Below are positions 10 to 33,096 of a stretch of DNA of 34,146 bases, one piece after another. Numbering within the stretch: the first letter of the stretch is position 1; every line of letters starts with the position of its first letter. The notes beneath the pieces were generated by a model. The model did not search any database. It saw only the letters and a program-made list of their open reading frames with translations, and was not told where the DNA came from. The position numbers were made by a program, and so were the translations under genes. The stretch is taken from assembly GCF_017982655.1 (NCBI RefSeq), contig NZ_JABXYX010000085.1, positions 1 through 34,146 of the forward strand, read 5' to 3'. This DNA is from Brasilonema sp. CT11. GTDB taxonomy: Bacteria > Cyanobacteriota > Cyanobacteriia > Cyanobacteriales > Nostocaceae.

Positions 10-1839
10 TTATTGAGATGAGTCATCTATTTTGATCTGATCATTTGTGATAGGTTTAGTAATACTTTCTTTTTGACCTATTTGATTTCGATAGTCCTTT
101 ATCTTCATAACTTTCCAGTTAGAATCTTGTGCAAGTTCTAATACCCATTGATGATAATCAAATAGGCTTTCTCTATGTCCAACACTAATAAACGTTGTTT
201 TCGTCTCTTGTAACTGTTGATATAAATGACCTTCATTTTTCAGATCTAAGGCACTTGTTGCTTCATCTAATATCGTGAACCTTGGATGAGTAACTAATAA
301 TCGTGCAAAAGCCAGACGTTGTTGTTCTCCTAGCGATAGTATGTTCTCCCAAGGAACTTCCGTATCGAAGCTATCGACTCGACTTAGCAAGTTTTGTAGG
401 TTGACTTGTTGCAAAACTTCTTTGAGTTCTGCGTCGGTCATTTGACTATTTGTACTAGGATAAAGCAATTGTTCGCGCAAGGTTCCTAAAATTATGTAAG
501 GACGTTGGGGTAAAAATAAAACTTCTTCTAATGGAGGTCGCATCAAACGACCACTCCCCGCATTCCACAAGCCAGCGATCGCTCTTAGCAGTGAGCTTTT
601 ACCTCGACCACTGGAACCGACAATCAATAAACCTTCTCCAGCTTTGACAGACAGTGACAAATTTTCAACTATCACCTGTTCATAGTCAGGCGTTTGTAAA
701 GTGACATTCTCAAAAGCTATCTGATTTTCTTCTATTGTTTTAATGGTAGTTACACCTTCTGGTTGTTTAGTAACAGCTTCTAACGCATCGGAAAATTCAG
801 ATAACCGTTCAACATAGCTAGAAAATATTCCAAAATTCCCAAATTGATTGATCAAATCACCCAAAGCATTAGCAAAAAAATAGCAACATACAGATGCTTG
901 GATAATTTCTCCAAATTCCATTTCACCTTTAATCTGTAAAGGCCCAAACACTATATATGGAAATATTTGAATTACAGCTTGATAACCTCTATTAAAAATC
1001 TCATTGTTTCTCTCCCAATCAATTTTGCGTTTAGCATTTTTTATCAAATTACTAAATCGGCGGGAAATAATATTTGATTCCTGCTTCTCTCCTCGAAAGA
1101 AAGCTACTGACTCAGCATGAGTGCGGAAATGAGTCAGGCAATAGGTGTAGTCAGCTTTCGCTTCAAGTTCTTCTCGACTAATTTTATTTAACTCTTGCGT
1201 CAAGTAAACAGCAATCAAATTGCCTATAACTGTATAAGTAACTAAAATCAGTGCAACAGACTGAGAGATTGACCAAAGAACTAATAAAAAAGCTGTCATC
1301 TCCAGTATTTTTTCCAGAAGAGTAGCTGAAAAACTTAAAGCATTGCTTGCAATGGGTTCGATTTCTTGAGATAAACGTTGATCTGGATTATCAATATTAG
1401 ATTTAAAGTTAATTTTGTAATAAGCTCGACTGTTTAAATATTTTGATAAAATCTTATTATTTAGCCATTGATACCACTCTAAAGCAATTTTTTTTCTCAC
1501 TAGTCTGGAGAACCCCGCTAAGATAGTTCCCAATACCAGAGCTGAACCATAAAGTAGTAAAGCATCATAAAACTTAGAGATTTCCTTCTCCTTAATGATG
1601 ATATCGGCCAAATAGCGATTAATAAAGCTATTAAAAACATTTGCACCAACAAGCGCAATTATTAATAAGATCAGGAGAATAAGCATTCCCCATGAGCGAA
1701 TCACCTCTGAGAATGCTCTGTCTCCTGGCTCGTTTGGATACCAGTAAGGTTGGGCGACCGCTTTTACGTCTTTCCAAAATTGAATAAAACCTAAAAAAGC
1801 ATTTGTTGAAGGTTGAGCTTGAACAACTTGGGTTGGCAT
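10..1839 (-). CDS. ABC transporter, fused membrane and ATPase domains (SbmA/YddA-like)
   Basis: Half-transporter of 609 residues that probably works as a homodimer in a membrane, most likely moving the cluster's peptide. The N-terminal half has hydrophobic segments near residues 52-70, 92-110, 172-212, 289-305 and 312-333, preceded by a PYWYPNE stretch that resembles the entry motif of the ABC_membrane_2 (SbmA/BacA, YddA, ABCD) family. The C-terminal ATPase has Walker A GSSGRGKSS near residue 409, signature LSLGEQQR near 500, Walker B FTILDEATSALD near 525 and an H-loop SVGHR near 553. It is divergent from the NRPS genes, with mobile-element debris in between. A broken copy of its first 27 codons lies at 31503, after the methylproline genes, so this gene family has been duplicated or moved within the cluster. 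Members of this family can import or export, so the direction is inferred. The published ncp cluster also includes a transporter, but I cannot confirm its symbol. Confidence 0.9.
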   Translation of the reverse strand: MPTQVVQAQPSTNAFLGFIQFWKDVKAVAQPYWYPNEPGDRAFSEVIRSWGMLILLILLIIALVGANVFNSFINRYLADIIIKEKEISKFYDALLLYGSALVLGTILAGFSRLVRKKIALEWYQWLNNKILSKYLNSRAYYKINFKSNIDNPDQRLSQEIEPIASNALSFSATLLEKILEMTAFLLVLWSISQSVALILVTYTVIGNLIAVYLTQELNKISREELEAKADYTYCLTHFRTHAESVAFFRGEKQESNIISRRFSNLIKNAKRKIDWERNNEIFNRGYQAVIQIFPYIVFGPLQIKGEMEFGEIIQASVCCYFFANALGDLINQFGNFGIFSSYVERLSEFSDALEAVTKQPEGVTTIKTIEENQIAFENVTLQTPDYEQVIVENLSLSVKAGEGLLIVGSSGRGKSSLLRAIAGLWNAGSGRLMRPPLEEVLFLPQRPYIILGTLREQLLYPSTNSQMTDAELKEVLQQVNLQNLLSRVDSFDTEVPWENILSLGEQQRLAFARLLVTHPRFTILDEATSALDLKNEGHLYQQLQETKTTFISVGHRESLFDYHQWVLELAQDSNWKVMKIKDYRNQIGQKESITKPITNDQIKIDDSSQ

Positions 1840-2903: not shown

Positions 2904-3132
2904 TATTGTATTTTGTTGGCTAAGGTGAGAGAATTCACAAATTCAAGTAAAAAGTACAGCTTTTAATAAACAAACTCGGTTTATTTAAAAGTAAAATTTT
3001 CTTACAATATAAAAAATCCTATTAACCAAGTATTTTATGATAAAAATAAGTTATATGCCCCAGAAAATATAGCTAATACTAAGTTTATTTTTAGTAAGGC
3101 TGTAATAATTTAAGGTAGCTTGATAGGAAAGT

Positions 3133-3138
3133 TATAAT
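3133..3138 (+). promoter_or_regulatory. candidate -10 box for the NRPS operon
   Basis: A perfect TATAAT lies 32 nt upstream of the docking-domain ORF start at 3171, in very AT-rich DNA. No convincing -35 hexamer stands at the usual distance (about 3110-3115 reads TTAAGG), so it would need an activator or an extended context. A weaker alternative is TACAAT at 3003-3008. Transcript mapping would decide. Confidence 0.35.
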
Positions 3139-3170
3139 TTTATTAAAATTAGCATCGATTAAGTACAATT

Positions 3171-3311
3171 ATGAATTTAACAGAGCTTATCAAAAATCTT
3201 TCAGCCAAGAATATTGATCTGTGGGTTGATGGAGACAAACTGCACTATCGATCGCCGGAACATTCACTAACCCCTGAGTTATTGCAAAAAATTAAGCAAT
3301 CTGAATCATAA
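3171..3311 (+). CDS. Stand-alone TubC-type N-terminal docking domain (46 aa)
   Basis: The translation begins MNLTELIKNLSAKNIDLW and contains the pattern of TubC_N docking domains found at the start of many cyanobacterial NRPS and PKS proteins: a helix, then a hairpin (WVDGDKLHYRSPEHSLTP), then a helix (ELLQKIKQ). These domains bind the C-terminal tail of an upstream synthase. The ORF ends with TAA at 3309-3311, and ncpA starts at 3315 in the same frame. Reading through the stop gives KIKQSES-stop-IMRIL, which continues the last docking helix (compare the usual KQHKxEI..L ending). The most likely history is a single fused gene split by one nonsense change (for example GAA, AAA or CAA to TAA). 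ncpA would then be translated by reinitiation at the ATG 3 nt later. No upstream synthase exists in this window for it to dock with. A sequencing error is possible. Confidence 0.7.
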   Translation: MNLTELIKNLSAKNIDLWVDGDKLHYRSPEHSLTPELLQKIKQSES

Positions 3312-3314
3312 ATT

Positions 3315-6300
3315 ATGCGAATTTTATCCCAGAGTACCGATCAGGCTGCAACTTATCCCCTCTCTCACGGTCAAAAGGCACTCTACTACTTGTATCAATT
3401 AGCTCCAATGGGGGCTGCTTATAACGTCACATATGCAGCAAAATTAGTTACAAATTTAGATATTCCCGCCCTTAAACAGGCAGCACAAGCTCTAGTTGAA
3501 AGGCATCCAGTTTTGAGGACTACCTTTGCAACCGTTGACGGCGAACCTGTGCAAACAGTTCACGAAAATCAGCAAATTGACTTTAACATCCAAGAAGCTT
3601 TCGATTTTAGCCAAGATCATCTAAACAACTGGCTCTCAGAAAAAAGCGATCGCCCTTTCAACTTAGAACAGGGGCCAATATTGCACTTTGATTTATTAAT
3701 TAACCATATTAAAACTGATAAATTAGCAAAAAAAGAATATATTCTCTTAATCACGCTACATCAGATAGTCGGGGATTTCTGGTCTTTAGAAATCATGACC
3801 GGTGAACTGAGAGCCTTGTATAAAGCGATCGCCACAGGTGAAGCAGCCCAATTATCAGCACAAAACTATCAATATCAAGATTACGTCAACTGGTCAGAGC
3901 AAATGCTCGCTAGTTCAGATGGAGAAAGTTTGTGGACTTACTGGCAGCAACAACTATCTGGTGAGTTGCCATTGCTAAATTTGCCAACAGATCGACCAAG
4001 ACCTCAAATCCAAACCTATAACGGCGCTTCCCGCTTTTTTACTATTGAAGAAGAACTGCGGCAATTGCTCACAGAATTGGCGACCAAAGAAGGTGCGTCT
4101 CTTTATATCCTTTTATTAACAGCATTACAAATACTATTACTACGTTATACCAATCAAGAAGATATTTTAATTGGCTCTTCAATGGTGAATCGGAGCCGTT
4201 CAGAGTTTGAAAATATTGTCGGTCATTTTACTAATCCTGTGGTCTTGCGAGGAGACCTTTCAGGAAAACCGACTTTTCAAGAGTTGCTTAGGCGATCGCA
4301 CTCTTGTGTGTTAAATGCCCTAGACCATCAAGATTATCCCTTTCCCCTGCTGGTAGAGCAACTGCAACCTGTCCGTAACTCCAGTTTTTCGCCGCTCTAT
4401 CAGGTAGCCTTAGTCTGGGATCGCTTTCACCAGAGTATAGATATTGATGGTTTGATTTTGGAATCATTGATTCTTGAGTCTAAAGAAGCCGCCTTTGATA
4501 TAACTTTAACCATTCTTGAGGAGACTAGCTCACTCAACGGTACATGGAATTATAACACTGACTTATTTGATGACAGCACGATCGCGCGGATGATGGGGCA
4601 TTTTCTAACTTTGCTCGAAGCAATTGTGGCAAATCCCCAGCAACGAATTGACCAATTACCTTTGTTGACACAATCTGAGGAACGGCAGTTATTAATCGAG
4701 TGGAATGATACTCAAGTAGACTATGCCCAAGATAAATGTATCCATCAGTTATTTGAGGAGCAGATGAAGCGGACACCCGATGCTGTGGCAGTGGTGTTTG
4801 AGAATCAACAATTGACGTACCACGAATTGAATTGTCGTGCTAACCAGTTGGCGCATTACTTACGTTCTTTGGGTGTAGGGGCGGATGTGCTAGTGGGAAT
4901 ATGTGTAGAGCGTTCTTTAGAGATGGTCGTCGGACTGTTGGGCATTCTCAAGGCGGGTGGTGCTTATGTACCACTTGACCCAGAATATCCCCAAGACCGT
5001 CTAAGCTTCATGCTAGAAGACGCTCAAGTTCCAGTATTACTCAGTCAACACCAACTCCTTGATCGACTACCTGAGTATCAGGCAAAACTGATTTGTTTAG
5101 ATGAAGTCTGGTCAGAAATTCTGCCTAACGAACAGAATAACCCTATTGAGGTAGTAACGCCTACTGACCTAGCGAATGTTATTTATACATCCGGCTCCAC
5201 AGGCAAACCCAAAGGGGTAATGATTGAGCATAGTGGATTGTGCAATCTAGCTCAAGCTCAGATTCAGATTTTTGGCTTGTCTGGTGATAGTCGAGTTCTT
5301 CAGTTTGCCTCCTTCAGTTTTGATGCTTGCATATCAGAAATCTTGATGGCTTTGGGATCGGGGGCAAGACTTTACTTAGGAACAAAAGACTCTCTGATGC
5401 CAGGTATGCCTTTAATTGAGCGATTCAGAGATGATGGCATTACCCATGTCACCCTACCACCATCAGCCTTGGCAGTCCTGCCAACAGAAGAACTGCCAAC
5501 ATTGCAAGCGATTATTGTCGCCGGAGAAGCCTGTCCTCTGGAACTGATGCGACAATGGTCAAAAAGCAGATACTTCTTCAACGCCTACGGTCCGACAGAA
5601 GCGAGTGTTTGTGCTGCGATCGCCAAATGCACTCCATTAGACCAAAAAATTTCCATCGGTCGTCCAATTTCCAATAAACAAATCTACATACTTGATCAAA
5701 ATTTACAACCAGTACCTGTGGGTGTACCAGGAGAACTGCACATAGGTGGTGTAGGATTAGCACGAGGTTATCTCAATCGCCCAGAATTAACACAAGAAAA
5801 ATTCATCCCCAACCCCTTCAACAATCGCACCAAAGGTGCGACTCAAAATTCAAAATTATATAAAACTGGAGATTTAGCTCGTTATCTACCAGATGGCAAT
5901 ATCGAATACTTGGGACGCATCGACAACCAAGTAAAAATCCGGGGATTCCGCATTGAGTTGGGAGAAATAGAAGCAACACTAAGCCAACATCCCCACGTGC
6001 AAGCATCATGTGTCATAGCCCGTGAAGATGCTCCTGGTGACAAGCGCCTAGTAGCCTACATCGTACCGCAGCCACAGGTGACACCTACAATTAGCGAACT
6101 GCGTAGCTTCCTCAAAGAAAAGCTACCAGAATACATGGTACCAAGTGCCTTCGTTATCTTAGAATGTTTACCACTTACCCCCAACGGCAAAATAAATCGT
6201 CGCGCTCTACCAGCACCAGAGCCAAGTAGTGAATTATCAGAGAAATATGTAGCTCCACACACCCCCATCGAAGAAATCCTGGCACTAATTTGGCAACAAG

Positions 6301-9300
6301 TCCTGAAAGTTGAGCTTGTAGGCAGAGATGATGACTTCTTTGAACTAGGAGGACACTCCCTACTAGGAACGCAATTCATCTCCCGTGTGCGTACCAGATT
6401 AAAAGTAGAACTACCATTACGTGAGTTATTTTCTGCACCAACAATTGCCCAGTTAGCACCATCGATTCAGCAGTTACAGCAGCAAGATATAGAACTGTCA
6501 GCACCACCCATCTTAAAGCGGGTAGAGAATGCAGAAATACCACTGTCATTTGCTCAACAGCGTTTGTGGTTTTTAGACCAGTTAGAGTTGAACAGTGCCT
6601 CATACAACCTATCCATAGGTTTGCGTCTAGTAGGAACTCTTAATATTGCAGCCTTAGAACAAAGCTTAATTGAAATTATTCATCGCCATGAAGCATTACG
6701 CACCAACTTTGTTACTGTTGATGGAAAGCCTTTACAAATAATTCAAACGGTAACGAACTGGACAGTAAGAGTCGTTGACTTGCAGCATTTATCAACACCT
6801 TTACTGAGCGAAGTCGCTGGCGGAGCCTCTGCCTCAGCAGAAGTAACAGAACAAAAAACGGCTGCACAGAAATTACTGGAACAACAAGCAATTGAGCCTT
6901 TTGACTTAGCTCATGATGCATTAATCAGAGCGACGTTGGTGGTGCTGTCTCCTACAGAACATTGGTTATCAGTGTGTATGCACCATACTGTCTGTGATGG
7001 CTGGTCAATAGGTGTGTTTGTCCAGGAGTTAGCAGCACTGTATAATGCTTATTCAATCGGTCAACCCTCTCTACGAGACGCTACGCGAACACCCCTGTTA
7101 CCACTACCAATTCAGTACGCAGATTTTGCAATTTGGCAAAGACAATGGTTAGTTGGAGAAGTACTACAAAACCAGTTGAGTTACTGGGAAAAACAGTTGG
7201 CAAATGCACCCACATTCTTGCCACTACCCACAGATAGACCAAGACCTGCTGTGCAGACTTTCAATGGCTCATATCATGTGTTTGCTCTGTCTGTTGAGTT
7301 GACCCAACAGTTGGAAAAACTGAGTCAACAGCAAGGTGTAACTATGTTTATGACTTTGTTGGCGGCTTATAATGCCCTACTTTATCGCTACACGGGACAA
7401 GAAGATATTTTGGTGGGGACACCAATTGCCTACCGCGATCGCACTGAGTTAGAAGGACTTATTGGCTTTTTTGTCAATACTTTAGTGATGCGAACTCAAG
7501 TTTCAGGCGATGGCAGTTTTAACGAATTACTCCCACGTATCCGGGAAATGGCACTGTCCGCCTACGCACATCAAGATTTGCCCTTTGAAATGCTAGTGGA
7601 AGCATTACAACCAGAACGGGACTTGAGCCATACACCATTGTTCCAAGTGATGTTTGTTCTCCTAAACGCTCCCATGTCTGAAATAGAGTTGACTGAGTTA
7701 AGTGTCACTGGCTTGCCAATAGGAATCACTACGGCAAAGTTTGACTTAACTTTATCAATGGAAAACACTCCTGGTGGACTGTTTGGGTGGTGGGAGTACA
7801 ACACTGACTTGTTTGATAGCAGCACTATCGAACGGATGACAGGTCATTTTGTGACGCTGCTTGAGGCAATTGTGGCAAATCCCAGCGAGCGGATTTCCCA
7901 ATTACCAATGCTCACAGCATCTGAGCAGCAACAGTTATTAGTGGAGTGGAATGATACAGGGGTAAATTATCCCCAGGATAAATGTATTCATCAGTTGTTT
8001 GAGGAGCAAGTTCAACGTACACCTGATGCTGTGGCAGTGGTGTTTGAGAATCAACAATTGACGTACCACGAATTGAATTGTCGTGCTAACCAGTTGGCAC
8101 ATTACTTGCTGTCTTTGGGAGTGGGAGCCGATGTGCTGGTGGGAATTTGTGTGGAGCGATCTTTGGAGATGATCGTGGGATTACTTGGTATTCTCAAGGC
8201 GGGTGGGGCTTATATACCACTTGACCCAGAATATCCCCAAGAGCGTCTGCGCTTTATCTTAGAAGATGCTCAAGTCTCAGTGCTGCTGAGTCAACAGCAT
8301 CTAGTTGAGAAATTACCTGAGTGTCAAGCGCAGCTTATAAGCTTGGATACTAATTGGCAGTTGATTTCTCAGTTGAGTCAAGAAAATCCCATCACTGATA
8401 TCCAAGCTAGTAACTTAGCTTATGTGATTTATACTTCCGGTTCTACAGGTCAGCCCAAGGGTGTGCAAATCTCACATCAATCTGTGAACAATTTCCTATC
8501 TGCCATGCAGCAGCGCCCAGGAATAACAAAACAAGATACACTGCTTGCAATCACTACTATCTCCTTTGATATTGCTGCTTTAGAAATTTTTCTGCCTATA
8601 ACTGTAGGTGCATCTATGGTCATAGCACGTCGTGACGTGACCCTTGATGGAAGAGAGTTATTTGACTTGCTAGTTAAGTCTAAGGCAACAATTATGCAAG
8701 CAACTCCAGCTACTTGGAGATTGCTTTTAGACTCCAACTACCAATTTAGCGATCTAAAAATACTTTGCGGGGGTGAAGCTTTACCTTGGGATCTTGTTAA
8801 TCAATTGCTTGCCAAAAGCGCTTCTTTGTGGAACCTTTATGGACCAACAGAGACTACTATTTGGTCAACAGTATGTCAACTTGAATCCCATGACAGCTTG
8901 ATTTCTATTGGTCGTCCAATTGACAATACCCAGATATACATACTAGACCAAAATTTACAACCAGTACCTGTAGGTGTACCAGGAGAGTTACACATCGGTG
9001 GTGCAGGATTAGCAAGAGGCTACTTGAACCGACCAGAATTAACACAAGAAAAATTCATTCCCAACCCGTTTGAGGAGGCAGGAGGGAGTAAATTATATAA
9101 AACTGGAGATTTAGCACGTTATCTACTAGATGGCAACATAGAATACCTGGGACGCATCGACAACCAAGTAAAAATCCGGGGATTCCGCATTGAATTGGGA
9201 GAAATAGAAACAGCACTGAGCCAACATCCCCATGTGCAAGCATCATGCGTCATAGCCCGTGAAGATGCTCCTGGTGACAAGCGCCTAGTAGCCTACATCG

Positions 9301-12300
9301 TACCCCAAGCACAAGTAACACTCACAATTAGCGAACTACGTAGCGGCCTCAAGAAAAAGTTACCAGACTACATGGTTCCTTCGGCAATAGTCATCTTGGA
9401 GTCTTTACCGCTTACCCCCAACGCCAAAGTAGACCGTCGCGCCCTACCAGCACCAGAGCTAAGTAATGAATTATTAGAGAAATATGTCGCCCCGCGTACA
9501 CCCATTGAGGAAATGCTTGCACTCCTGTGGGCGCAAGTTCTGAAAGTAGAGCTTGTGGGCAGACATGACAACTTCTTTGAACTTGGAGGACACTCCCTAC
9601 TAGCAACGCAACTTATTTCCCGTGTGCGTAGCGGCTTGAAAGTAGAACTGCCATTGCGTTCGTTGTTTGCTGCACCAACAATTGCTGAATTAGCCCCAAA
9701 CATTCAAAGGTTACAGCAACAAAACCTAGAACTTGCTGCACCACCCATTTTAAAGCGGGCAAACAATGCACAACTACCACTGTCTTATGCTCAACAGCGT
9801 TTATGGTTTTTAGACCAGTTCGAGCCCAACAGTGCCTCATACAACATCCCCTTCGGGTTGCGTTTAGTAGGAACTGTTAATGTTGGAGCATTAGAACAAA
9901 GCTTAATTGAAGTTATTCATCGTCACGAAGCATTACGTACCAACTTCATCACAGTTGATGGACAAGCTTCTCAAATAATTGAAACAGAAACGAATTGGAC
10001 AGTTACAATTGTTGATTTAAAGCATTTACCCTTAACAGAAATTGAAATAGCTGCACAGCAATTAGTTCAACAACAAGCGCTTCTTCCTTTTGACTTAGCG
10101 TCGGATGCATTAATCAGAGCAACATTAGTAATGCTGTCTCCTACAGAACAGTGGTTATTAGTGTGTATGCACCACGTTGTCAGTGATGGTTGGTCAATAG
10201 GTGTATTTGTCCAAGAGTTACAAGTACTGTATAATGCTTATTCTCAAGGTGAACTATCCCCTTTAATACCACTGGCGATTCAGTACGCAGATTTTGCTAT
10301 TTGGCAAAGACAATGGTTGCAAGGCTTGGTACTTAAGAGCCAATTGAGTTACTGGCAAGAACAATTGGTAAACGCACCTACATTTTTGCCACTACCCACA
10401 GACAGACCCAGACCTGCTGTGCAGACTTTTAATGGCGCAAATATGGAGTTTGCCTTGTCTGTTGAACTCACTCAACAACTGACAAAACTAAGTCAAGAGC
10501 AAGGGGTGACTTTGTTTATGACGCTGTTAGCGGCGTATAACACATTACTTTACCGCTATACGGGACAAACAGATATTTTGGTGGGGACACCAATTGCTAA
10601 CCGCGATCGCACTGAGATAGAGGGATTAATTGGCTTTTTTGTCAATACTTTGGTGATGCGGACTGATTTATCTGAAAATCCCAGTTTTAACGAATTACTC
10701 CCCCGCATTCGAGAAATGGCGCTGTCCGCTTACGCTCATCAAGATTTGCCATTTGAAATGTTGGTGGAAGCATTGCAGCCAGAACGAGACTTGAGTCATA
10801 CACCACTGTTCCAAGTGATGTTCGTCCTCCAGAATGCTCCCATAGAAGTGGAGTTGACTGGGTTAACTGTCAGCTCATTACCAATAGAAGGTGCGATCGC
10901 CAAGTTTGATTTAACTTTAGCAATAGAGAATACTACCACTGGACTCGTGGGAGGATGGGAGTATAACACAGACTTGTTTGATGCGTCCACTATTGAACGG
11001 ATGACGGGGCATTTTGTAACACTGCTAGAAGGTATTGTTGCTAATCCCAAACAGCGCATTTCTCAATTATCAATACTCACAATATTTGAGCAACAGCAGT
11101 TATTAGTTGAGTGGAATGATACTCAAGTAGATTATCCAATAGATAAATGTGTACATCAGTTGTTTGAGGAGCAGGTTGAGCGCACACCCAATGCAGTTGC
11201 AGTGGTGTTTGAAAATCAAAAATTGACGTACCACGAGTTGAATTGTCGTGCTAACCAATTAGCCCATTACTTGCAGTCTTTGGGTGTAGGGGCGGATGTG
11301 CTGGTTGGGATATGTGTAGAACGCTCCTTAGAAATGGTGGTGGGATTACTTGGTATTCTCAAGGCGGGTGGTGCTTACGTGCCACTTGACCCTGAGTATC
11401 CCCAAGACCGTCTCTCGTTCACGCTTGCAGACGCTCAAGTTTCCGTGCTACTTACCCAACAGCATTTAGTTGAGTCTCTTCCTCAACATCAGGCGCGTGT
11501 AGTCCACTTAGATCAAGACTGGATTGCGATCGCTAAGTTTAGCCAGGAGAATCCAATTGCTGAGGTGCAAGCTAGTAACATAGCTTATGTTATTTATACT
11601 TCTGGCTCTACTGGTCAACCCAAGGGGGTAATACTATCTCACAGTAACCTTTGCAACCACATGTTCTGGATGCAAGCAACATTCCCCTTGACTGAAAAAG
11701 ACAAAGTACTGCAAAAAACTCCCTTTGGCTTTGATGCCTCAGTTTGGGAATTCTACGCTCCATTGTTAGCAGGTGGACAGTTGTTAATAGCTGAACCAGG
11801 AGGTCATACTGACAGTGCTTATCTCTTAAAGTTAATTGTCCAGCAGCAGGTAACTACTATTCAACTTGTTCCATCTTTGCTGCAAATGCTTTTAGAACAA
11901 GGAGGAATCGAAACTTGTCACTCCCTCAAATACGTATTCTGTGGCGGTGAAGCCTTACCTGTTACTCTGCAAGAAAGCTTATTAAGTAAACTAGATGTAC
12001 ATTTGCACAATCTCTACGGACCAACAGAGACTTGTATTGATGCAACTTTCTGGAATTGTCAGCGTGAGATTTATCCACAACTTGTCCCCATTGGTCGTCC
12101 AATTTCCAACACGCAAATCTACATACTCGACCAAAACTTACAACCAGTACCTGTGGGTGTACCAGGAGAACTGCACATTGGTGGTGCAGGATTAGCAAAA
12201 GGATACCTCAACGCAAGAGAGCTAACACTTGAAAGATTTATCCCCAACCCGTTTAACAAGTCAAAAGTTAAAAGTCAAAAGTCAAAATTATATAAAACAG

Positions 12301-14339
12301 GGGACTTAGCACGTTACCTACCAGATGGAAATATCGAATATCTGGGTCGCATCGACAACCAAGTAAAAATTCGGGGTTTCCGCATCGAGTTGGGAGAAAT
12401 TGAAGCAGCACTAAGCCAACATAGTGATGTGCAAACATCTGTAGTCATCATTCGCGAAGACATTCCCGGATATAAGCGCCTAGTCGCCTATATAGTACCG
12501 CAGCAACAGATAACACCCACAGTTAGCAAACTGCGTAGCTTCCTGAAAGAAAAGCTACCAGAATACATGGTACCAAGTGCGATCGTTACCCTAGAATCCC
12601 TACCGCTTACCACCAACGGCAAAATAGATCGTCGCGCCCTACCAGCACCAGAAGCACGCACAGGAATAGAAAGCAGCTTGGTAGCACCGCGCAACCTCAT
12701 TGAAGAAAAATTAGCCCAAATTTGGGCGCAAGTGTTAAGAGTAGAGCAAATAAGCATACACGATAACTATTTTGAACTAGGAGGAGATTCCATCCTCAGC
12801 ATTCAAATCATCAGCAGAGCAAAAGCTGCCGGAATAAAACTGACAATTAAACAACTATTTGCTAATCAAACCATCGCCCAATTAGCCACAGTTGCAGGCA
12901 CAACAAAAGCACTCTCAATTGAACAAGGATTAGTTACAGGGACATTCCCCCTAACACCAATTCAACATTGGTTTTTTGAGCAGAAATTACCAGATAAACA
13001 CCACTTCAATCAATCATTTCTCCTCACAGTACCATCAAACCTCAACCTAGAAATATTAGAGCAAGTATGGCAGCAATTACTAAAACATCACGATGCTTTA
13101 AGGCTAAGATTCACAACAGGCACAATATGGCAGCAGATTCATGCCGACCCAACTGATAACATTACTATCCCCCGTGTTGACCTATCAAAAGTTCCAGAAA
13201 CTGAGATAGAAACTGTCATTGAAACTACAGCCAATGAATTACAGGCGAGTTTAAATCTGTCAGAAAATCTAGTGCAAGTAGCATTTTTCTGGCTGGGTAT
13301 TGACAAAAAAGCCCGATTACTGATAATTATTCACCATCTCGTAGTAGACGGGGTTTCCTGGCGGATATTGTTAGAAGATTTGCAGACAGCTTACCAGCAA
13401 CTAAGTCAAGGCAAAACCATTCAACTACCTGATAAAACCACATCCTTCAAAGATTGGGCGCTACAACTTACAGAATATGCCCAGTCAGAAATTTTAAAAT
13501 CACAACTAGATTATTGGTTGAGTCGATCTTACGATGCAGTTGATTCCATCCCAGTAGATTATGGACAAGGAATAAACACAACTGCATCCGCTAGGATCGT
13601 ATCAGTATCATTAAACGAAGCCGAAACTCTTTCCCTCCTGCAAGATGTCCCGAAAGCTTACAAAACACAAATAAACGATATCTTGCTAACTGCCTTAGCG
13701 CTGGTGTTGAGCGGATGGACTAACTCTGACTCAGTGTTATTCAACTTAGAAGGTCATGGGCGAGAAGAGATTATCGCTGGTGTAGATTTATCACGCACTG
13801 TTGGTTGGTTTACAACAATTTTCCCAGTGGTTGTGGAACTGGGAATCATAGATGATATTGGTACTGCTTTAAAATCTGTCAAGGAACAATTACGTGTAAT
13901 TCCTAATAAAGGTATTGGCTATGGCTTATTGCGTTATCTAAATGTTGATGCAGAAATTAGCGCCCAACTAGAGAAAATTCCTCAAGCAGAAATTAGCTTT
14001 AATTATTTGGGACAGTTTGCTCAAGTTGTGAATACATCTTCTTTGATGCAAGTAGCTAATGAGCCGATGGGAAACAGCGAGAGTTTACAAGGTCAGCGCC
14101 ATTGTTTGATAGACATTAATGCTATCATTATTAACGAAAAACTACAAATAGATTGGACATACAGCAGCAATATCCATCAGCACGAAACAATTGAAAATAT
14201 TGCCCAAGAATTTGTCGAAACGTTGCAAGATATAATTGCTCATTGTTTATCACCGGAAAATGCAGGTTATACGCCCACGGATTTCCCATTAATTCAACTT
14301 AACCAACTAGAAATAGATCAGATATTTCAAAATCTATGA
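3315..14339 (+). CDS. ncpA: NRPS, three modules plus epimerase: Tyr-Gly-D-Gln (NcpA type)
   Basis: Peptide synthetase of 3674 residues with order C-A-T, C-A-T, C-A-T-E. Module 1: C from about residue 14, A 480-960, T with phosphopantetheine Ser1015. Module 2: C 1074 on (His1223-His1224 of HHTVCDG), A 1558-2040, Ser2094. Module 3: C 2154 on (His2286-His2287), A 2613-3105, Ser3159 in LGGDS, the form usual before an epimerase. E starts near 3208, with HHLVVDG at 3340. Pocket residues (235, 236, 239, 278, 299, 301, 322, 330, 331) aligned by hand to GrsA are DASTIAAVC (Tyr), DILQLGLIW (Gly) and DAWQFGLID (Gln). The first C domain reads HQIVGDF at 149-155, so the catalytic second His is Gln. The C-terminal tail TPTDFPLIQLNQLEIDQIF resembles a communication domain for the next protein. 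The stop overlaps the ncpB start by 4 nt. Specificities come from memory of published codes, and the identity with NcpA comes from the combined pattern. Confidence 0.93.
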   Translation: MRILSQSTDQAATYPLSHGQKALYYLYQLAPMGAAYNVTYAAKLVTNLDIPALKQAAQALVERHPVLRTTFATVDGEPVQTVHENQQIDFNIQEAFDFSQDHLNNWLSEKSDRPFNLEQGPILHFDLLINHIKTDKLAKKEYILLITLHQIVGDFWSLEIMTGELRALYKAIATGEAAQLSAQNYQYQDYVNWSEQMLASSDGESLWTYWQQQLSGELPLLNLPTDRPRPQIQTYNGASRFFTIEEELRQLLTELATKEGASLYILLLTALQILLLRYTNQEDILIGSSMVNRSRSEFENIVGHFTNPVVLRGDLSGKPTFQELLRRSHSCVLNALDHQDYPFPLLVEQLQPVRNSSFSPLYQVALVWDRFHQSIDIDGLILESLILESKEAAFDITLTILEETSSLNGTWNYNTDLFDDSTIARMMGHFLTLLEAIVANPQQRIDQLPLLTQSEERQLLIEWNDTQVDYAQDKCIHQLFEEQMKRTPDAVAVVFENQQLTYHELNCRANQLAHYLRSLGVGADVLVGICVERSLEMVVGLLGILKAGGAYVPLDPEYPQDRLSFMLEDAQVPVLLSQHQLLDRLPEYQAKLICLDEVWSEILPNEQNNPIEVVTPTDLANVIYTSGSTGKPKGVMIEHSGLCNLAQAQIQIFGLSGDSRVLQFASFSFDACISEILMALGSGARLYLGTKDSLMPGMPLIERFRDDGITHVTLPPSALAVLPTEELPTLQAIIVAGEACPLELMRQWSKSRYFFNAYGPTEASVCAAIAKCTPLDQKISIGRPISNKQIYILDQNLQPVPVGVPGELHIGGVGLARGYLNRPELTQEKFIPNPFNNRTKGATQNSKLYKTGDLARYLPDGNIEYLGRIDNQVKIRGFRIELGEIEATLSQHPHVQASCVIAREDAPGDKRLVAYIVPQPQVTPTISELRSFLKEKLPEYMVPSAFVILECLPLTPNGKINRRALPAPEPSSELSEKYVAPHTPIEEILALIWQQVLKVELVGRDDDFFELGGHSLLGTQFISRVRTRLKVELPLRELFSAPTIAQLAPSIQQLQQQDIELSAPPILKRVENAEIPLSFAQQRLWFLDQLELNSASYNLSIGLRLVGTLNIAALEQSLIEIIHRHEALRTNFVTVDGKPLQIIQTVTNWTVRVVDLQHLSTPLLSEVAGGASASAEVTEQKTAAQKLLEQQAIEPFDLAHDALIRATLVVLSPTEHWLSVCMHHTVCDGWSIGVFVQELAALYNAYSIGQPSLRDATRTPLLPLPIQYADFAIWQRQWLVGEVLQNQLSYWEKQLANAPTFLPLPTDRPRPAVQTFNGSYHVFALSVELTQQLEKLSQQQGVTMFMTLLAAYNALLYRYTGQEDILVGTPIAYRDRTELEGLIGFFVNTLVMRTQVSGDGSFNELLPRIREMALSAYAHQDLPFEMLVEALQPERDLSHTPLFQVMFVLLNAPMSEIELTELSVTGLPIGITTAKFDLTLSMENTPGGLFGWWEYNTDLFDSSTIERMTGHFVTLLEAIVANPSERISQLPMLTASEQQQLLVEWNDTGVNYPQDKCIHQLFEEQVQRTPDAVAVVFENQQLTYHELNCRANQLAHYLLSLGVGADVLVGICVERSLEMIVGLLGILKAGGAYIPLDPEYPQERLRFILEDAQVSVLLSQQHLVEKLPECQAQLISLDTNWQLISQLSQENPITDIQASNLAYVIYTSGSTGQPKGVQISHQSVNNFLSAMQQRPGITKQDTLLAITTISFDIAALEIFLPITVGASMVIARRDVTLDGRELFDLLVKSKATIMQATPATWRLLLDSNYQFSDLKILCGGEALPWDLVNQLLAKSASLWNLYGPTETTIWSTVCQLESHDSLISIGRPIDNTQIYILDQNLQPVPVGVPGELHIGGAGLARGYLNRPELTQEKFIPNPFEEAGGSKLYKTGDLARYLLDGNIEYLGRIDNQVKIRGFRIELGEIETALSQHPHVQASCVIAREDAPGDKRLVAYIVPQAQVTLTISELRSGLKKKLPDYMVPSAIVILESLPLTPNAKVDRRALPAPELSNELLEKYVAPRTPIEEMLALLWAQVLKVELVGRHDNFFELGGHSLLATQLISRVRSGLKVELPLRSLFAAPTIAELAPNIQRLQQQNLELAAPPILKRANNAQLPLSYAQQRLWFLDQFEPNSASYNIPFGLRLVGTVNVGALEQSLIEVIHRHEALRTNFITVDGQASQIIETETNWTVTIVDLKHLPLTEIEIAAQQLVQQQALLPFDLASDALIRATLVMLSPTEQWLLVCMHHVVSDGWSIGVFVQELQVLYNAYSQGELSPLIPLAIQYADFAIWQRQWLQGLVLKSQLSYWQEQLVNAPTFLPLPTDRPRPAVQTFNGANMEFALSVELTQQLTKLSQEQGVTLFMTLLAAYNTLLYRYTGQTDILVGTPIANRDRTEIEGLIGFFVNTLVMRTDLSENPSFNELLPRIREMALSAYAHQDLPFEMLVEALQPERDLSHTPLFQVMFVLQNAPIEVELTGLTVSSLPIEGAIAKFDLTLAIENTTTGLVGGWEYNTDLFDASTIERMTGHFVTLLEGIVANPKQRISQLSILTIFEQQQLLVEWNDTQVDYPIDKCVHQLFEEQVERTPNAVAVVFENQKLTYHELNCRANQLAHYLQSLGVGADVLVGICVERSLEMVVGLLGILKAGGAYVPLDPEYPQDRLSFTLADAQVSVLLTQQHLVESLPQHQARVVHLDQDWIAIAKFSQENPIAEVQASNIAYVIYTSGSTGQPKGVILSHSNLCNHMFWMQATFPLTEKDKVLQKTPFGFDASVWEFYAPLLAGGQLLIAEPGGHTDSAYLLKLIVQQQVTTIQLVPSLLQMLLEQGGIETCHSLKYVFCGGEALPVTLQESLLSKLDVHLHNLYGPTETCIDATFWNCQREIYPQLVPIGRPISNTQIYILDQNLQPVPVGVPGELHIGGAGLAKGYLNARELTLERFIPNPFNKSKVKSQKSKLYKTGDLARYLPDGNIEYLGRIDNQVKIRGFRIELGEIEAALSQHSDVQTSVVIIREDIPGYKRLVAYIVPQQQITPTVSKLRSFLKEKLPEYMVPSAIVTLESLPLTTNGKIDRRALPAPEARTGIESSLVAPRNLIEEKLAQIWAQVLRVEQISIHDNYFELGGDSILSIQIISRAKAAGIKLTIKQLFANQTIAQLATVAGTTKALSIEQGLVTGTFPLTPIQHWFFEQKLPDKHHFNQSFLLTVPSNLNLEILEQVWQQLLKHHDALRLRFTTGTIWQQIHADPTDNITIPRVDLSKVPETEIETVIETTANELQASLNLSENLVQVAFFWLGIDKKARLLIIIHHLVVDGVSWRILLEDLQTAYQQLSQGKTIQLPDKTTSFKDWALQLTEYAQSEILKSQLDYWLSRSYDAVDSIPVDYGQGINTTASARIVSVSLNEAETLSLLQDVPKAYKTQINDILLTALALVLSGWTNSDSVLFNLEGHGREEIIAGVDLSRTVGWFTTIFPVVVELGIIDDIGTALKSVKEQLRVIPNKGIGYGLLRYLNVDAEISAQLEKIPQAEISFNYLGQFAQVVNTSSLMQVANEPMGNSESLQGQRHCLIDINAIIINEKLQIDWTYSSNIHQHETIENIAQEFVETLQDIIAHCLSPENAGYTPTDFPLIQLNQLEIDQIFQNL
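6802..6845 (+). repeat. In-frame small repeat inside ncpA condensation domain 2
   Basis: Compared with the other condensation domains of the cluster (for example HLPVTAQKTAAQKL in the last module), this one carries about 16 extra residues, PLLSEVAGGASASAE, at the same point. The inserted DNA begins TACTGAGCGA, contains GGCGGAGCC and ends AGAAGTA. The same start, middle and end recur in the insertion at 20427-20472. It is therefore a small dispersed repeat that entered the gene without breaking the frame. Confidence 0.7.
7068..7090 (+). repeat. 23-nt repeat in frame in condensation domain 2
   Basis: The sequence begins TCTCTACGAGAC and ends GCTACGCGAAC, encoding the extra residues SLRDATR between QP and TPLLPL. 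The other condensation domains read QPSPLLPL here. An identical 23-nt copy sits at the equivalent place in the last condensation domain of ncpB (24611-24633), and 13 nt of it (ACGCTACGCGAAC) occur again at 16127-16139. Confidence 0.8.
12258..12288 (+). repeat. AGTCAAA-type heptad repeat in an A-domain loop of module 3
   Basis: The loop between NPF and LYKTGD in adenylation domain 3 is encoded by AAGTCAAAAGTTAAAAGT followed by further AGTCAAA units, giving NKSKVKSQKSK. This is a run of 7-nt units of the kind known as STRR in heterocystous cyanobacteria, here translated in frame. The same loop carries different extra DNA in modules 1 and 5. Confidence 0.75.
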
Positions 14340-17300
14340 AATTAGAACTTAGCAAAACTGACCGCCAAAATATTGAAGATATTTATCCCTTATCTCCTAT
14401 GCAACAGGGGATGCTGTTTGAAAGTTTGTATGCTCCAGATTCAGGCGTATATTTTGAGCAGATAACTTGCATTTTGACGGGAAACCTAGATGTAAAAACC
14501 TTTGAGCAAGCTTGGCAGCACGTGGTAGCTCGGCATCCCGTCTTCCGCACAGCTTTCCTTTGGGAGTCTTTGAGCCAGCCAGTTCAAGTGGTGTATCGAC
14601 AGATAAATGTGACAGTCGAAACTTATGACTGGCGGGAGTTATCTACACTTGAGCAGCAACAGCAATTAGAGACTTTTCTGGATTCTGAGCGACAACAGGG
14701 TTTTCAAGTGTCGCAAGCGCCATTGATGCGTCTACATCTAATCCAGTTGGATGGGAATACTTATCAGTTTGTTTGGTGTCATCATCATTTATTACTTGAT
14801 GGCTGGTCGTCACCTTTAGTTTTCCAAGATCTGTTGGAGTTTTACCAAGCAATTTCTCAGGGTGAAAGTTTATCTAACATCGGAACTGTCAACTACCGCA
14901 ATTATATTGCTTGGTTACAGCAACAGGACCGAGATTTAGCTGATAAATTTTGGCGACAAAAACTCCAAGGTTTTACTACACCAACTCCTTTGACTGTAGA
15001 TAAACCATTGTCAATGCGCGAGCAGCATTTGGGCTACAGCGAACAACAAATTGACTTAACAGTGCCAGCGACAGCAGTAGTGATGTCTTTTGTTAGACAG
15101 CATCAATTGACGATGAGTAATTTGGTGCAGGCGACTTGGGGATTGTTGCTGTCTCGCTATAGCCAAGAAACAGATGTGGTTTTTGGTGCAACTGTGTCTG
15201 GTCGTCCGCCTGAACTTGTTGGTGTAGAGTCGATTGTAGGGTTATTTATCAATACTCTGCCAGTGCGAGTACAAATCTCCGAGCAGACTGAATTGTTGGG
15301 TTTATTGAAGGATTTACAGGCGCAACAGGTGGAGTCTGGGCAATTTTCCTATAGCTCATTGGCAGAGATTCAGAAGCTGAGTGATGTTCCCAAGGGTACG
15401 TCTTTGTTTGAGAGTATTGTTGTTTTTGAGAATTATCCTGTTGATACTGCTGTTCTACAAGGCAATAGCGATTTTTCCCTCTCGAATTTTAGGTGGATTG
15501 AACAAACAAATTATCCTCTGGCGGTTTTAGTTTCCCCTGGTGAGCAATTGTCGCCGAGGGTGATGTACGATGCTAGTCGATTTGAAGATGGAACGATTAG
15601 CCGGATGCTGGGTCATTTTAGAACAATGCTTGAGGTGATCGCTACTAATCCTCAGCAACGAATTTCCCAGTTGCTAATGCTAACAGAATCTGAGCAGCAA
15701 CAGTTATTAGTTGACTGGAATGATACCCAGGTAGATTACCCCCAAGATAAATGTATCCATAAGTTGTTTGAGGAGCAGGTAGAGCTTACACCCGATAATG
15801 TAGCAGTGGTGTACGAGAATCAACGTCTCACATACCACGAATTGAACAGCCGTGCTAACCAGTTGGCGCACTATCTGAAGTCTTTGGGTGTGAAAGCTGA
15901 TGCGTTGGTGGGGATATGTGTGGAGCGTTCCTTAGAAATGGTAGTGGGACTATTGGGGATTCTCAAGGCGGGTGGTGCTTATGTGCCACTTAACCCAGAA
16001 TATCCTCAAGAGCGATTGATCTTCATGCTTGAAGATACTCAGTTATCAGTCATATTGACTCAAGAAAAACTAGTTCATAAACTAGGCGATCGCCTCCGGC
16101 GCGACTTTGCTGATTCTCCAGAGGAAACGCTACGCGAACGCAAAGCTAATGTAATTTGCTTAGACTCAAACTGGGATATCATCAATCAACAAACACAACA
16201 AAACCCAACTACCAGCGTCAAAGCTGATAACTTAGCTTATGTAATGTACACCTCCGGTTCTACAGGTCAACCCAAAGGTGTGAGCATTGTCCATCGAAGT
16301 GTGGTTCGACTCGTCAAAAAAACCAATTATATCAGCATTTCTGCTGGTGATGTAATTGCACAAGCCTCAAATCACGCCTTCGATGCTGCTACCTTTGAAA
16401 TTTGGGGAGCGTTACTGAACGGAGCGCGGTTAGTAGGCGTGAGCAAAGATTTAGCACTTTCGCCTTCAGCTTTCGCAGTCTTTATGCGATCGCAAAGTAT
16501 CAGCGTGTTATTCTTGACAACTGCATTGTTCAATCAAATTGCTCAAGAAGTTCCCTCTGCTTTCAATTCACTACGGCATCTTCTGTTTGGCGGCGAGGCT
16601 GTCGATCCTAAATGGGTTAAAGAAGTACTCAAAAATGGTGCGCCGCAGCGACTGCTCCATGTTTATGGACCAACAGAGAATACAACATTTAGTTCCTGGT
16701 ACTTGGTGCAGGATGTGCCAGAAGGCGCGACAACTATTCCCATCGGGCAGCCAATTTCCAACACACAAATCTATTTGTTAGATTCCCAACTACAACCAGT
16801 AGGTATTGGTGTACCGGGAGAATTATACATAGGGGGAGATGGTTTAGCTAAGGAATACCTTAACCGCACCGAGTTAACACAAGAAAAATTCATCCCCAAC
16901 CCCTTTAGTTCTGACCTCAATTCACGTCTCTACAAAACCGGGGATAAAGCACGTTACTTAAGCGATGGCAATATTGAATACTTATATCGTATTGATAACC
17001 AAGTAAAAATACGTGGGTTAAGGATTGAGTTGGGCGAAATTGAAGCAGTCCTGAGCCAACACAGCGATGTGCAGGTATCTTGTGTCATTGTTCGCGAAGA
17101 TACCCCTGGAGATAAACGTTTAGTCGCCTACATCGTAACCCATCAAGACTGTCAACCTACGATGGGCGAAATACGTCAATTCCTCAAAGCAAAGCTGCCA
17201 GATTACATGATACCAAGTGCAATAGTTATCTTGGAATCTTTCCCTTTGACTTCCAACGGCAAAGTAGACCGCCGCGCCCTGCCAAAGCCAGACTTGGACA

Positions 17301-20300
17301 CCGCACTCGAAGAAAAATATGTCGCCCCGCGTACACCAATTGAGGAAATGCTTGCACTCCTGTGGACGCAAGTTTTGAAAGTAGAGCCAGTGGGTATTTA
17401 CAATAATTTCTTTGAACTTGGGGGACACTCACTGTTAGCAACGCAACTAGTTTCACGCATCCGCACTAGCTTCAAAGTAGAACTACCATTGCGTTCGTTA
17501 TTTGCTGCACCAACAATTGCGGAATTAGCGCCATTGATTCAACGGTTACAACAAGACTTAGAACTTGCCGCACCACCCATCTTCAGGCGGGCAGAAAATG
17601 CAAATTTACCACTGTCTTATGCTCAACAGCGGTTGTGGTTTTTAGATCAGTTCGAGCCGAACAGTTCTTTCTATAATATCCCCATTGGTTTGCGTTTAGT
17701 CGGAACTCTGAATGTTGTTGCCTTAGAAGAAAGCTTAATTGAAATTATTCATCGCCACGAAGCATTACGCACTAAATTCATCACAGTTGATGGACAAACT
17801 GCTCAAATCATTCATAATTGGAGGGAACAGGAAAATATACCTTGGACACTATCAGTTGTGGAGTTGCAGCATTTACCTTGGAGAGAACAAGAAATAGCTG
17901 CACAGAAATTAGTCCAACAACAAGCAATTGAGTCTTTTGACTTAGCGTCAGAAGTATTAATTAGAGCAACATTAGTGGTGCTGTCCGAGACAGAACATTG
18001 GTTAACCGTATGTATGCACCACATTGTCAGTGATGGTTGGTCAATGGGTGTATTTGTCGAGGAGTTACAAGCACTCTACAATGCTTATTCTCAGGGTCAA
18101 CCATCACCCCTGTTGCCACTACCAATTCAGTACGCAGATTTTGCAATTTGGCAAAGACAATGGTTAGTCGGGGAAGTACTACAAAACCACTTGAGTTACT
18201 GGCTTCAACAGTTAGCAAACGCACCCACATTCTTGCCACTACCCACAGACAGACCCAGATCGGCTGTGCAGACTTTCAATGGCGCACATCTGGAGTTTGC
18301 CCTGTCTGGTGAACTAACTCAACAACTGAGCAAACTGAGTCAACAGCTTGGGGTAACTTTGTTTATGACTTTGTTAGCGGCATATAATACTTTGCTTTAC
18401 CGCTACACAGGACAAACAGATATTTTGGTGGGGACACCAATTGCTAATCGCGATCGTACTGAGATAGAAGGGTTAATTGGCTTTTTTGTCAATACTTTAG
18501 TGATGCGGACAGATTTAGCAGGCAACCCCAGTTTTAACGAATTACTCCCGCGTATCCGGGAAATGGCACTGTCCGCCTACGCTCATCAAGATTTGCCCTT
18601 TGAAATGCTAGTGGAAGCATTGCAGCCAGAACGAGATCTTAGCCATACACCACTGTTCCAAGTGATGTTCGCTCTCCAAAACGCTCCCATATCTGAAATA
18701 GAGTTAACTGGGTTAAATGTCAGTGACTTGCCCATAGAAAGTTCCACAGCAAAGTTTGATCTGACCTTATCAATGGAAAACACTAGCACTGGACTAGTGG
18801 GAGGGTGGGATTATAACACTGACTTGTTTGATAGCAGTACCATTGAGCGCATGACTGGTCATTTTGTGAAACTACTTGAAGCAATTGTGGCGAATCCCCA
18901 AGAGCGCATTTCTCAATTACAAATACTCACAGCATCTGAACAGCAACAGTTATTAATTGAATGGAATGATACTCAAGTAGACTACGCCTGCGATAAATGT
19001 ATACATCAATTATTTGAAGAACAAGTGGAGCGTACCCCCAATGCAGTGGCGGTGATGTTTGAGAATCAACAATTGACGTACCACGAGTTGAATTGTCGTG
19101 CTAACCAGTTGGCGCATTACTTGCAGTCAGTGGGAGTGTCCGCCGATGTGCTGGTGGGGATTTGTGCCGAGCGCTCTTTTGAGATGATCGTGGGATTACT
19201 TGGTATTCTTAAGGCAGGTGGGGCTTACGTACCACTTGATCCAGAGTATCCCCAAGACCGTCTGAGTTTTATGCTCGAAGACACTCAAGTTTCCGTGCTA
19301 CTTACCCAACAGCATCTAGTTAAGAAATTACCTGAACATCAAGCGCGTGTCCTTTGCTTGGATACCGACTGGGAGATCATTACCCAATCGGTATCTAAGC
19401 AAAATCCAATCACTGGCATGCAAGCTACTAACTTGGCTTATGTAATTTACACTTCGGGTTCCACCGGAAAGCCTAAAGGAGCGATAAATACGCATCTAGG
19501 GATTTGCAATCGCCTCCTGTGGATGCAGCAAGCATATCAATTAACAGAAATAGACTGCGTTTTACAGAAAACTCCTTTCAGCTTTGATGTCTCGGTTTGG
19601 GAGTTTTTCTGGCCGTTAATGACTGGAGCGCGTTTAGTTGTAGCGAAACCAGGTGGACATAAAGATAGTGGTTACTTGGTCAAAGTAATACTAGAACAGC
19701 AAGTTACTACACTGCATTTTGTTCCTTCGATGCTCCAGATTTTTCTAGAAGAACAAGGTTTAAAAGATTGCAGTAGCTTGAAACAAGTTATTTGTAGTGG
19801 CGAAACACTGCCTTTAGAACTTCAGGAACGCTTTTTCGCTTGTTTAGGGTGTCAATTGCATAATCTCTACGGGCCGACAGAAGCGGCAATTGACGTCACC
19901 TTCTGGGAATGTCAATCAAAGAGCAATTTGAAAACTGTGCCTATTGGTCGCCCAATTTCCAATACGCAAATTTACATACTCGACCAAAACTTACAACCAG
20001 TACCTGTGGGTGTACCAGGAGAGTTACACATCGGTGGTGCAGGATTAGCAAGAGGATACCTCAACGCAACAGAGTTAACACAAGAGAAATTCATCCCTAA
20101 CCCCTTCAGTGGAAGTAGGGATGCAGGGGAGCAGAGGAGCAGAGGGTTAAGGGAGCGGAGGAGAAAAATAGCCCAATCTCCAGTCCCCAGCCACCGCCTG
20201 TATAAAACCGGAGATTTGGCTCGTTATCTACCAGATGGCAATATCGAATATCTGGGACGTATCGACAACCAAGTAAAAATCCGTGGATTCCGCATCGAAT

Positions 20301-28556: not shown

Positions 28557-29351
28557 ATGACTGCTGCTTATAACCAGATTAAATCGCCAGTGTGGGAAAA
28601 CAAGCAAGAGTATCCCTTAACGAAAGAATCTTTAAAAATGTTGCTTGAAAAACGAATTCCTCTAATTCGGTTGAAAGAATTCGCCACACCTGAAGAGTGT
28701 GAGATGTTATATGCTCAATCTCAATTGCTCAACTTTAATGCTTATGAAGATGTGAGTCCCAAAATTGAAAAAGTTGGCATTACAGTGTTTGAATACAACA
28801 GCATTAGTAAAGGAGATTATTTTAAAGAAGTAGAAAAGGCTAGTAAATTAAGAGATTCCATTTTTGCAGCCTCCTTCAATCCATTGAAGCGCATAATGAT
28901 GAAATTCCAAGAGTGTGGCGCGAAGGTGCGAATTGCTTCGGAACCATTCTACGGTAGTTATTATGCAGGACTGATCAGAAAAATAGAGCATGGTACCCAA
29001 ACTCATATTGATTTCGCCCCATTGGAGCAATCAGGATGGGAAGTTTGTACAATTGTTACTCAACTTTCCTGGACTTTTTACTTGAAATTGTCTGACAACA
29101 ATCATGGTAAAACATACATTTATGATCGCCAATGGCAACCAGAAGATGAGCAATATAAACTCGATTCCTATGGATATAGTGATACAGTAATTGCAAATAA
29201 AGATCCGATCGCTTTCCAACCTTATGTCGGAGATGTATTGCTTTTCAATACAACCAACTTTCACTATGTTGAGCCGATGAATGGACAACGTGTGGCTTTC
29301 ACTTCCATGATTGGATTACTTCCTAACGGTGAAATTATTTTCTGGTCTTAA
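28557..29351 (+). CDS. Fe(II)/2-oxoglutarate oxygenase, probable L-leucine 5-hydroxylase
   Basis: Protein of 264 residues. The metal-binding triad of the Fe(II)/2-oxoglutarate superfamily is visible as His150-x-Asp152 (THIDFAPL) and His236 (NFHYVEP). Arg245 lies nine residues further on, where the 2-oxoglutarate carboxylate is usually bound. 4-Methylproline is made from leucine via 5-hydroxyleucine. The Nostoc punctiforme enzyme LdoA performs that first hydroxylation and is an oxygenase of this kind. Placement directly before the NosE-type and NosF-type genes makes this the likely first step. I cannot align it to LdoA here, so the substrate is inferred. An AAGGA ribosome site at 28544-28548 supports the start. 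A paralogue of equal length with the same residue numbers lies at 31728. Confidence 0.75.
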   Translation: MTAAYNQIKSPVWENKQEYPLTKESLKMLLEKRIPLIRLKEFATPEECEMLYAQSQLLNFNAYEDVSPKIEKVGITVFEYNSISKGDYFKEVEKASKLRDSIFAASFNPLKRIMMKFQECGAKVRIASEPFYGSYYAGLIRKIEHGTQTHIDFAPLEQSGWEVCTIVTQLSWTFYLKLSDNNHGKTYIYDRQWQPEDEQYKLDSYGYSDTVIANKDPIAFQPYVGDVLLFNTTNFHYVEPMNGQRVAFTSMIGLLPNGEIIFWS

Positions 29352-32965: not shown

Positions 32966-33096
32966 TACTTTAAAACGGTAAAGATACTACAAAAAATTTG
33001 AGTTTTATCAGATCAAGAGTTTATATATTACTCAAATAATTCAACTTTCATTTCAATTGATCTATTAGTCTTTTAGTAAAGTTGAGAGATTTATCT

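Follow-up and report, generated by a model that had tools for sequence, protein, structure and literature searches.

In Brasilonema sp. CT11, a short open reading frame (ORF) resembling a docking domain directly precedes the synthetase gene ncpA, and one in-frame stop codon stands between them. Did this stop cut NcpA off from an upstream partner, or did it strike an N-terminus whose partner was already gone? We analyzed the 34,146-nucleotide stretch of DNA carrying the locus (the window) together with its homologues. The explanation that we consider likely is that a nonsense mutation arose late, in a vestigial NcpA N-terminus whose upstream partner had been lost before.

The ncp cluster in the window

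The window bears a nostocyclopeptide-type cluster. The ncpA gene (3315..14339, + strand; 3674 codons open) encodes three C-A-T modules followed by a terminal E domain, as we read the last of its four condensation-like domains. The ncpB gene (14336..28477, + strand; 4713 codons open) encodes four modules and a terminal reductase, and its start overlaps the ncpA stop. These domain counts are those of a nostocyclopeptide cluster. Also present were the zinc dehydrogenase and P5C reductase that methylproline would call for, and an ABC transporter (10..1839, − strand) divergent from ncpA. With the docking part excluded, the individual domains of NcpA were 78–93% identical to those of 11 ncpA-like relatives.

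Several other features were observed in the window. A transposase fragment (DDE_3; 2000–2485, − strand) sits between the ABC transporter gene and ncpA. The ABC transporter start and the docking ATG are 1.33 kb apart, versus about 0.6–1.2 kb in relatives, with crude ORF starts used throughout. Upstream of ncpA, positions 2850–2903 hold a tandem repeat of CTTAACTGT, with five exact copies and a sixth carrying one mismatch as counted by eye. Two WelO5-like oxygenase genes (28557–29351 and 31728–32522) flank methylproline-type genes. An ORF at 33082–33822 resembles the final part of the alanyl-tRNA synthetase family profile as well as its second additional domain.

The 46-codon ORF is a truncated docking domain

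At the junction, the ATG at 3171, the TAA at 3309–3311, the ATT at 3312–3314 and the ATG at 3315 are all in one frame. The 46-residue ORF (3171..3311, + strand), which ends in this TAA, matched the Pfam TubC_N profile (PF18563) with E = 5.7e-14. Its score of 52.4 bits against a cut-off of 26 indicated a docking domain and not a chance match. The ORF alone covered positions 2–42 of the 52 in the model; scored through the stop, the coverage was 2–52 and the score 58 bits. The initial annotation had described a complete docking domain in the ncpA frame, with only TAA ATT in between. The frame, the coordinates and the TubC-type match were as described; the domain is not complete, as the stop falls at residue 47 and helix 3 is absent.

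Structures were modeled to locate the stop. In a fused Nostoc edaphicum homologue (L097), the predicted elements were a helix at residues 3–12, strands at 16–20 and 23–27, and helices at 35–43 and 45–54 (mean pLDDT 85; 76–85 over residues 1–50 and 64 over residues 51–60). On this model, docking residue 47 lies inside the first turn of helix 3. The helix 3 equivalent in the window (residues 45–54; 3303..3332, + strand), placed by transfer from L097, is interrupted by the stop, and its remainder now forms the start of NcpA. The 46-mer itself was modeled (mean pLDDT 77.6, pTM 0.40) as helix–strand–strand–helix, that is, helix 1, strands 1 and 2, and helix 2 of a beta-hairpin docking domain, with no third helix. 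By these predictions the docking ORF is incomplete, a truncated relative of TubC_N and not a full member with helix–strand–strand–helix–helix order. The fused homologue's docking domain keeps helix 3, whereas the window ORF stops before it and, ending at 3309–3311, is fused to no C, Cy or other synthetase domain.

The 46-mer resembles by sequence the beta-hairpin docking domains of AerJ (8aqq), TubC (2jug), EpoB (5t7z and 5t81) and Kj12 (6ewt and 6ewu). Its predicted fold gave TM scores, normalized by the 46-mer, of 0.82 to 8aqq_A and 0.87 to 5t81_A. A Foldseek search with the 46-mer model returned no E-value below 0.001, and the top nine rows were all docking or docking-synthetase structures.

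The stop codon is found at one of 35 distinct junctions

C1-region homologues were drawn from 217 genomes of the family and a named genome collection (52 loci). C1 matches of at least 55% identity gave a junction table of 47 rows, including the window's own two; L107 and L108 were added, giving 49 rows and 35 distinct docking–C junctions. Only the window has a stop. At the position of its TAA (3309..3311, + strand), the other 34 junctions all have glutamate, with no stop and in one frame, bearing out the view that a single in-frame stop parts the docking domain from ncpA. No unrelated sequence was found upstream of the condensation domain when the homologues were checked for it. E47 was invariant in a 30-sequence alignment without the window that reached proteins about 38% identical.

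TubC_N matches were also inspected in 40 hand-picked genomes. A stop inside the match occurred in 2 of 301 matches (12 + 141 + 148), namely in the window and in a decayed remnant in G129, a count that would miss a stop just behind a full match. In the strain's own genome, 1 of 12 TubC_N places had a stop. Some further C1-region matches outside the junction table reappeared among the TubC_N matches without a stop. A plasmid search gave a single weak match, in an adenylation gene, and a viral contig search found no relative. Among the titles, abstract openings and passages reached by a literature search, none described this stop.

The homologues were grouped by their C1 motif. In the window, C1 carries the degenerate active-site motif HQIVGDF (3759..3779, + strand) in place of the HHxxxDG of active condensation domains; in the remaining seven C and E domains of the two synthetases, the motif is HHxxxDG. 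Fourteen junction homologues share HQ with the window, 19 have HH, and L108 was left unclassed. Among the HH-type C1 domains, HHxxxDF was seen in 18 of 19 (e.g., L049, L051 and L114) and HHxxxDL in L059; none had HHxxxDG. All 14 HQ-type relatives have a fused docking domain, and all 14 lack the second C1 histidine. Eleven of them are ncpA-like as far as their contigs reach, and L102 is probably so; L105 and L106 encode a shorter, different synthetase. Seven HH sequences, treed with the HQ sequences, formed one group with support of 100. The closest relative of the window in the trees was Rhizonema sp. NSF051 (L046), with support of 64 and 51 in trees of docking plus C1 together and of 99 in a longer alignment. 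NcpA of Nostoc edaphicum CCNP1411, taken to be L097/L016, agrees with the window in gene, domain order, docking domain and degenerate C1 motif (PMC7551626); its docking domain is fused in a single frame of 3777 residues, whereas in the window it is split off.

The TAA is known from a single assembly, a 411-contig draft, and a base error is therefore our main doubt. If the TAA were a base-calling or assembly error, the strain would have a fused NcpA like its relatives. Besides the draft state of the assembly, the occurrence of the stop at only one of 35 distinct junctions and a docking ORF free of decay would fit such an error. Against an error, the remaining 3674 codons are open, and none of the genome's other 11 TubC_N places contains a stop. 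The ATG two codons past the stop is absent from 13 of the 14 HQ-type relatives and would fit a real split, though weakly, since the fused L105 shares it. On balance we regard an error as unlikely.

A linked partner gene and the second C1 histidine are missing in fused relatives

The genes upstream of the docking domain were compared, the count for the outgroup (HH) covering 10 of its 19 loci. In 8 of these 10, the docking–C gene is preceded by a same-strand ORF that ends at it or just short of it. Seven of the eight overlap the docking–C ATG by 4 nt, among them the ORF of L054, a mere 119-codon fragment; that of L052 ends about 110 nt upstream. In L056 and L059, no upstream gene was seen despite the retained HH. 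PKS domains were found in all seven upstream ORFs scanned (L054 left out), with a ketoreductase and a carrier domain in six and a ketosynthase only in L057. Their C-termini are alike (e.g., NNWIEGEL, NNWIEVEL and NNYIEGEL) and, judged by this resemblance, look as expected for a SLiM. The C1 domains of Nostocales docking–C synthetases downstream of PKS genes (L008/L114, L049, L051, L053, L055 and L057) are 59–78% identical to that of the window. These synthetases keep HH in C1 and are preceded by a PKS gene overlapping them by 4 nt; the window has neither. As PKS genes precede the outgroup genes, it is very likely that the ancestor of NcpA took a chain from an upstream partner, as the initial annotation had proposed.

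No partner ORF was found near the docking ATG in any of the 12 distinct HQ-type loci whose sequence extends 1.5 kb or more upstream; L046 and L048, with too little upstream sequence, were left out of this count. Eleven of the 12 have a divergent ORF upstream whose N-terminus resembles, by eye, that of the window's ABC transporter. In the twelfth, L047, no same-strand ORF upstream ends within 1 kb. In the window, both upstream ORFs of at least 100 aa lie on the other strand, and no upstream-encoded SLiM partner was found among the linked genes.

The same annotation had equated the stop with the loss of the link to this partner. The relatives speak against that, since the 12 HQ-type loci already have no partner gene and all 14 HQ-type sequences have no second C1 histidine, yet their docking domains are fused. 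The most economical order is thus that partner and histidine were lost first and that the stop came last, on the window branch.

The chemistry of the product was also considered. According to PMC7551626, NcpA has a docking domain and a degenerate C1 motif, C1 was suggested to be possibly inactive, and nostocyclopeptide is cyclized by an imine that involves the free Tyr1 amine. An imine with a free Tyr1 amine would leave no room for an upstream acyl donor, so NcpA should have to start the chain.

We considered whether the 46-mer is still used, either as a free docking peptide acting in trans on NcpA or in competition for a PKS C-terminal motif. Its sequence is preserved, and the same genome (contig C351) has a PKS with the C-terminus NNWIEGKL beside a related docking domain (L008/L114), as such a use would favor. 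In known complexes, however, the SLiM strand lies against strand 2 and helices 2 and 3 (PMC9113145), so the 46-mer, which has no helix 3, should dock badly. There is also no partner gene beside ncpA, and the second histidine of C1 is lost. We therefore judge continued use of the 46-mer to be very unlikely.

The N-terminal part of ncpA is relaxed but not neutral

Selection was estimated with codon models. In the 11 ncpA-like sequences without the window, omega was 0.42 (0.28–0.66) for the docking domain and 0.39 (0.34–0.46) for C1. In the 19 HH sequences, the values were 0.24 (0.20–0.30) and 0.21 (0.20–0.22), respectively, in a comparison between clades of different depth. The other ncpA domains had omega values of 0.18–0.34, of which T1 (0.34) was not clearly below C1. 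The docking domains of partnerless ncpA genes had an omega below 1 (LRT 13.9), indicating some purifying selection. As omega was above that of the HH group and still below 1 for the docking domain, the N-terminal part of ncpA appears relaxed but not neutral. These sets exclude L102 (cut by a contig end and aligning badly late in the gene), L105 and L106, all three of which still enter the counts of junctions and motifs.

On the window branch, the docking ORF showed no measurable speed-up (omega 0.47 versus 0.41, p = 0.86), and its codon changes were two silent and two amino-acid changes. C1 was weakly faster (0.65 versus 0.39, p = 0.10); the L046 branch gave 0.62 (p = 0.17). Foreground fits for A2 and E converged poorly (LRT zero or slightly below), and the values used are those of the background and of the docking and C1 foregrounds. 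By parsimony counts, which are rough and leave out variable sites, amino-acid to silent changes on the window branch were 21:9 in C1 versus 10:25 in A1 (Fisher p = 0.001). On the L046 branch, this contrast was lacking (24:14 versus 21:19, p = 0.37).

The lack of decay of the docking ORF on the window branch means that the stop is recent or that something still preserves the ORF. One such possibility is that the partnerless docking domain of NcpA still has a job, e.g., a contact with an unlinked protein, and that in this strain it has been freed as a trans peptide or as a tuner of NcpA synthesis. We consider this quite unlikely, and favor a late nonsense mutation in an N-terminus that was already vestigial.

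Translation of NcpA probably starts at the ATG three bases past the stop

The ATG at 3315..3317 (+ strand) is the probable start of NcpA. Isoleucine stands there in 13 of the 14 HQ-type relatives; because the fused L105 has methionine, the start could predate the stop. It is the first in-frame ATG, GTG or TTG after the stop. The next candidates are a TTG at residue 26 and an ATG at residue 32, and a start at either would cut into C1. NcpA made from 3315 would keep C1 whole, as the first strand past the docking helices starts at residue 60 in the fused model.

The leader before the docking ATG (3125..3170, + strand) aligns with that of relatives, and the DNA match starts at or before 3125 in 9 of the 14 HQ-type ones. 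As this leader is common to the nine, 3171 is probably the inherited start, and ribosomes probably still begin there. No Shine–Dalgarno-like sequence was seen by eye before 3315. NcpA is probably made from the ATG at 3315, perhaps by termination–reinitiation; a restart three bases past termination would be plausible (PMC6728339).

Two other uses of the junction were weighed. If the stop were read through often enough, a fused NcpA would still be made, and the frame and both halves are indeed preserved across the stop. TAA is, however, a tight stop, and an ATG follows two codons later; read-through on this scale seems highly improbable. The small ORF might instead now be under selection as a leader whose translation, through coupling, controls how much NcpA is made. 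The stretch before 3171 is common to relatives, and stop and start are 3 nt apart, both consistent with such a role. Yet the ancestral frame already accounts for the position of the ORF without any selection, and the proposal overlaps the late nonsense mutation, differing only in the claimed selected role. We hold it to be extremely improbable.

Proposed course of events

Under the late nonsense mutation, the ancestor of NcpA would have been a docking–condensation–adenylation synthetase that received its chain from a PKS upstream, with a SLiM/beta-hairpin contact for docking. On the line leading to the first synthetase of the nostocyclopeptide pathway, the PKS partner and the second catalytic histidine of C1 would have been lost. 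Still fused, the docking domain and C1 would have persisted at the N-terminus as an extension under looser constraint. The docking domain would then have been split off in this strain, when a nonsense mutation hit the first turn of helix 3. Ribosomes would finish the 46-codon ORF and probably restart at the ATG three bases past the stop, giving a working NcpA, and the 46-mer without helix 3 would probably be a functionless by-product.

The comparison suggests an order for the change from an elongating to an initiating synthetase, in which loss of the partner gene and the histidine is followed by relaxed constraint and, at the end, by separation of the docking domain. The strain offers a natural experiment on whether nostocyclopeptide synthetases still make any use of their docking–C1 remnant. 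In annotation, the docking remnant goes unseen when the gene is started at 3315, and fused docking copies elsewhere hint at a partner although none is encoded next to them.

Other docking remnants

A short TubC_N frame in G179 (contig C268) was considered as a parallel split and rejected, because the frame is cut by the contig end. In L116 (G085, about 9738–9888, − strand), a docking domain lies in an 81-residue frame as an orphan; in the stretch read, no synthetase follows in frame. L109 (G129, 4814–4975) is a decayed docking–C1 remnant whose docking domain is interrupted by a TGA. L108 (G124, 11879–11933, − strand) is a second ncpA-like copy; its docking domain is present only from residue 31 onward. 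The first 30 docking residues are replaced by unrelated sequence, methyltransferase-like by eye, and the C1 frame closes after 1802 codons.
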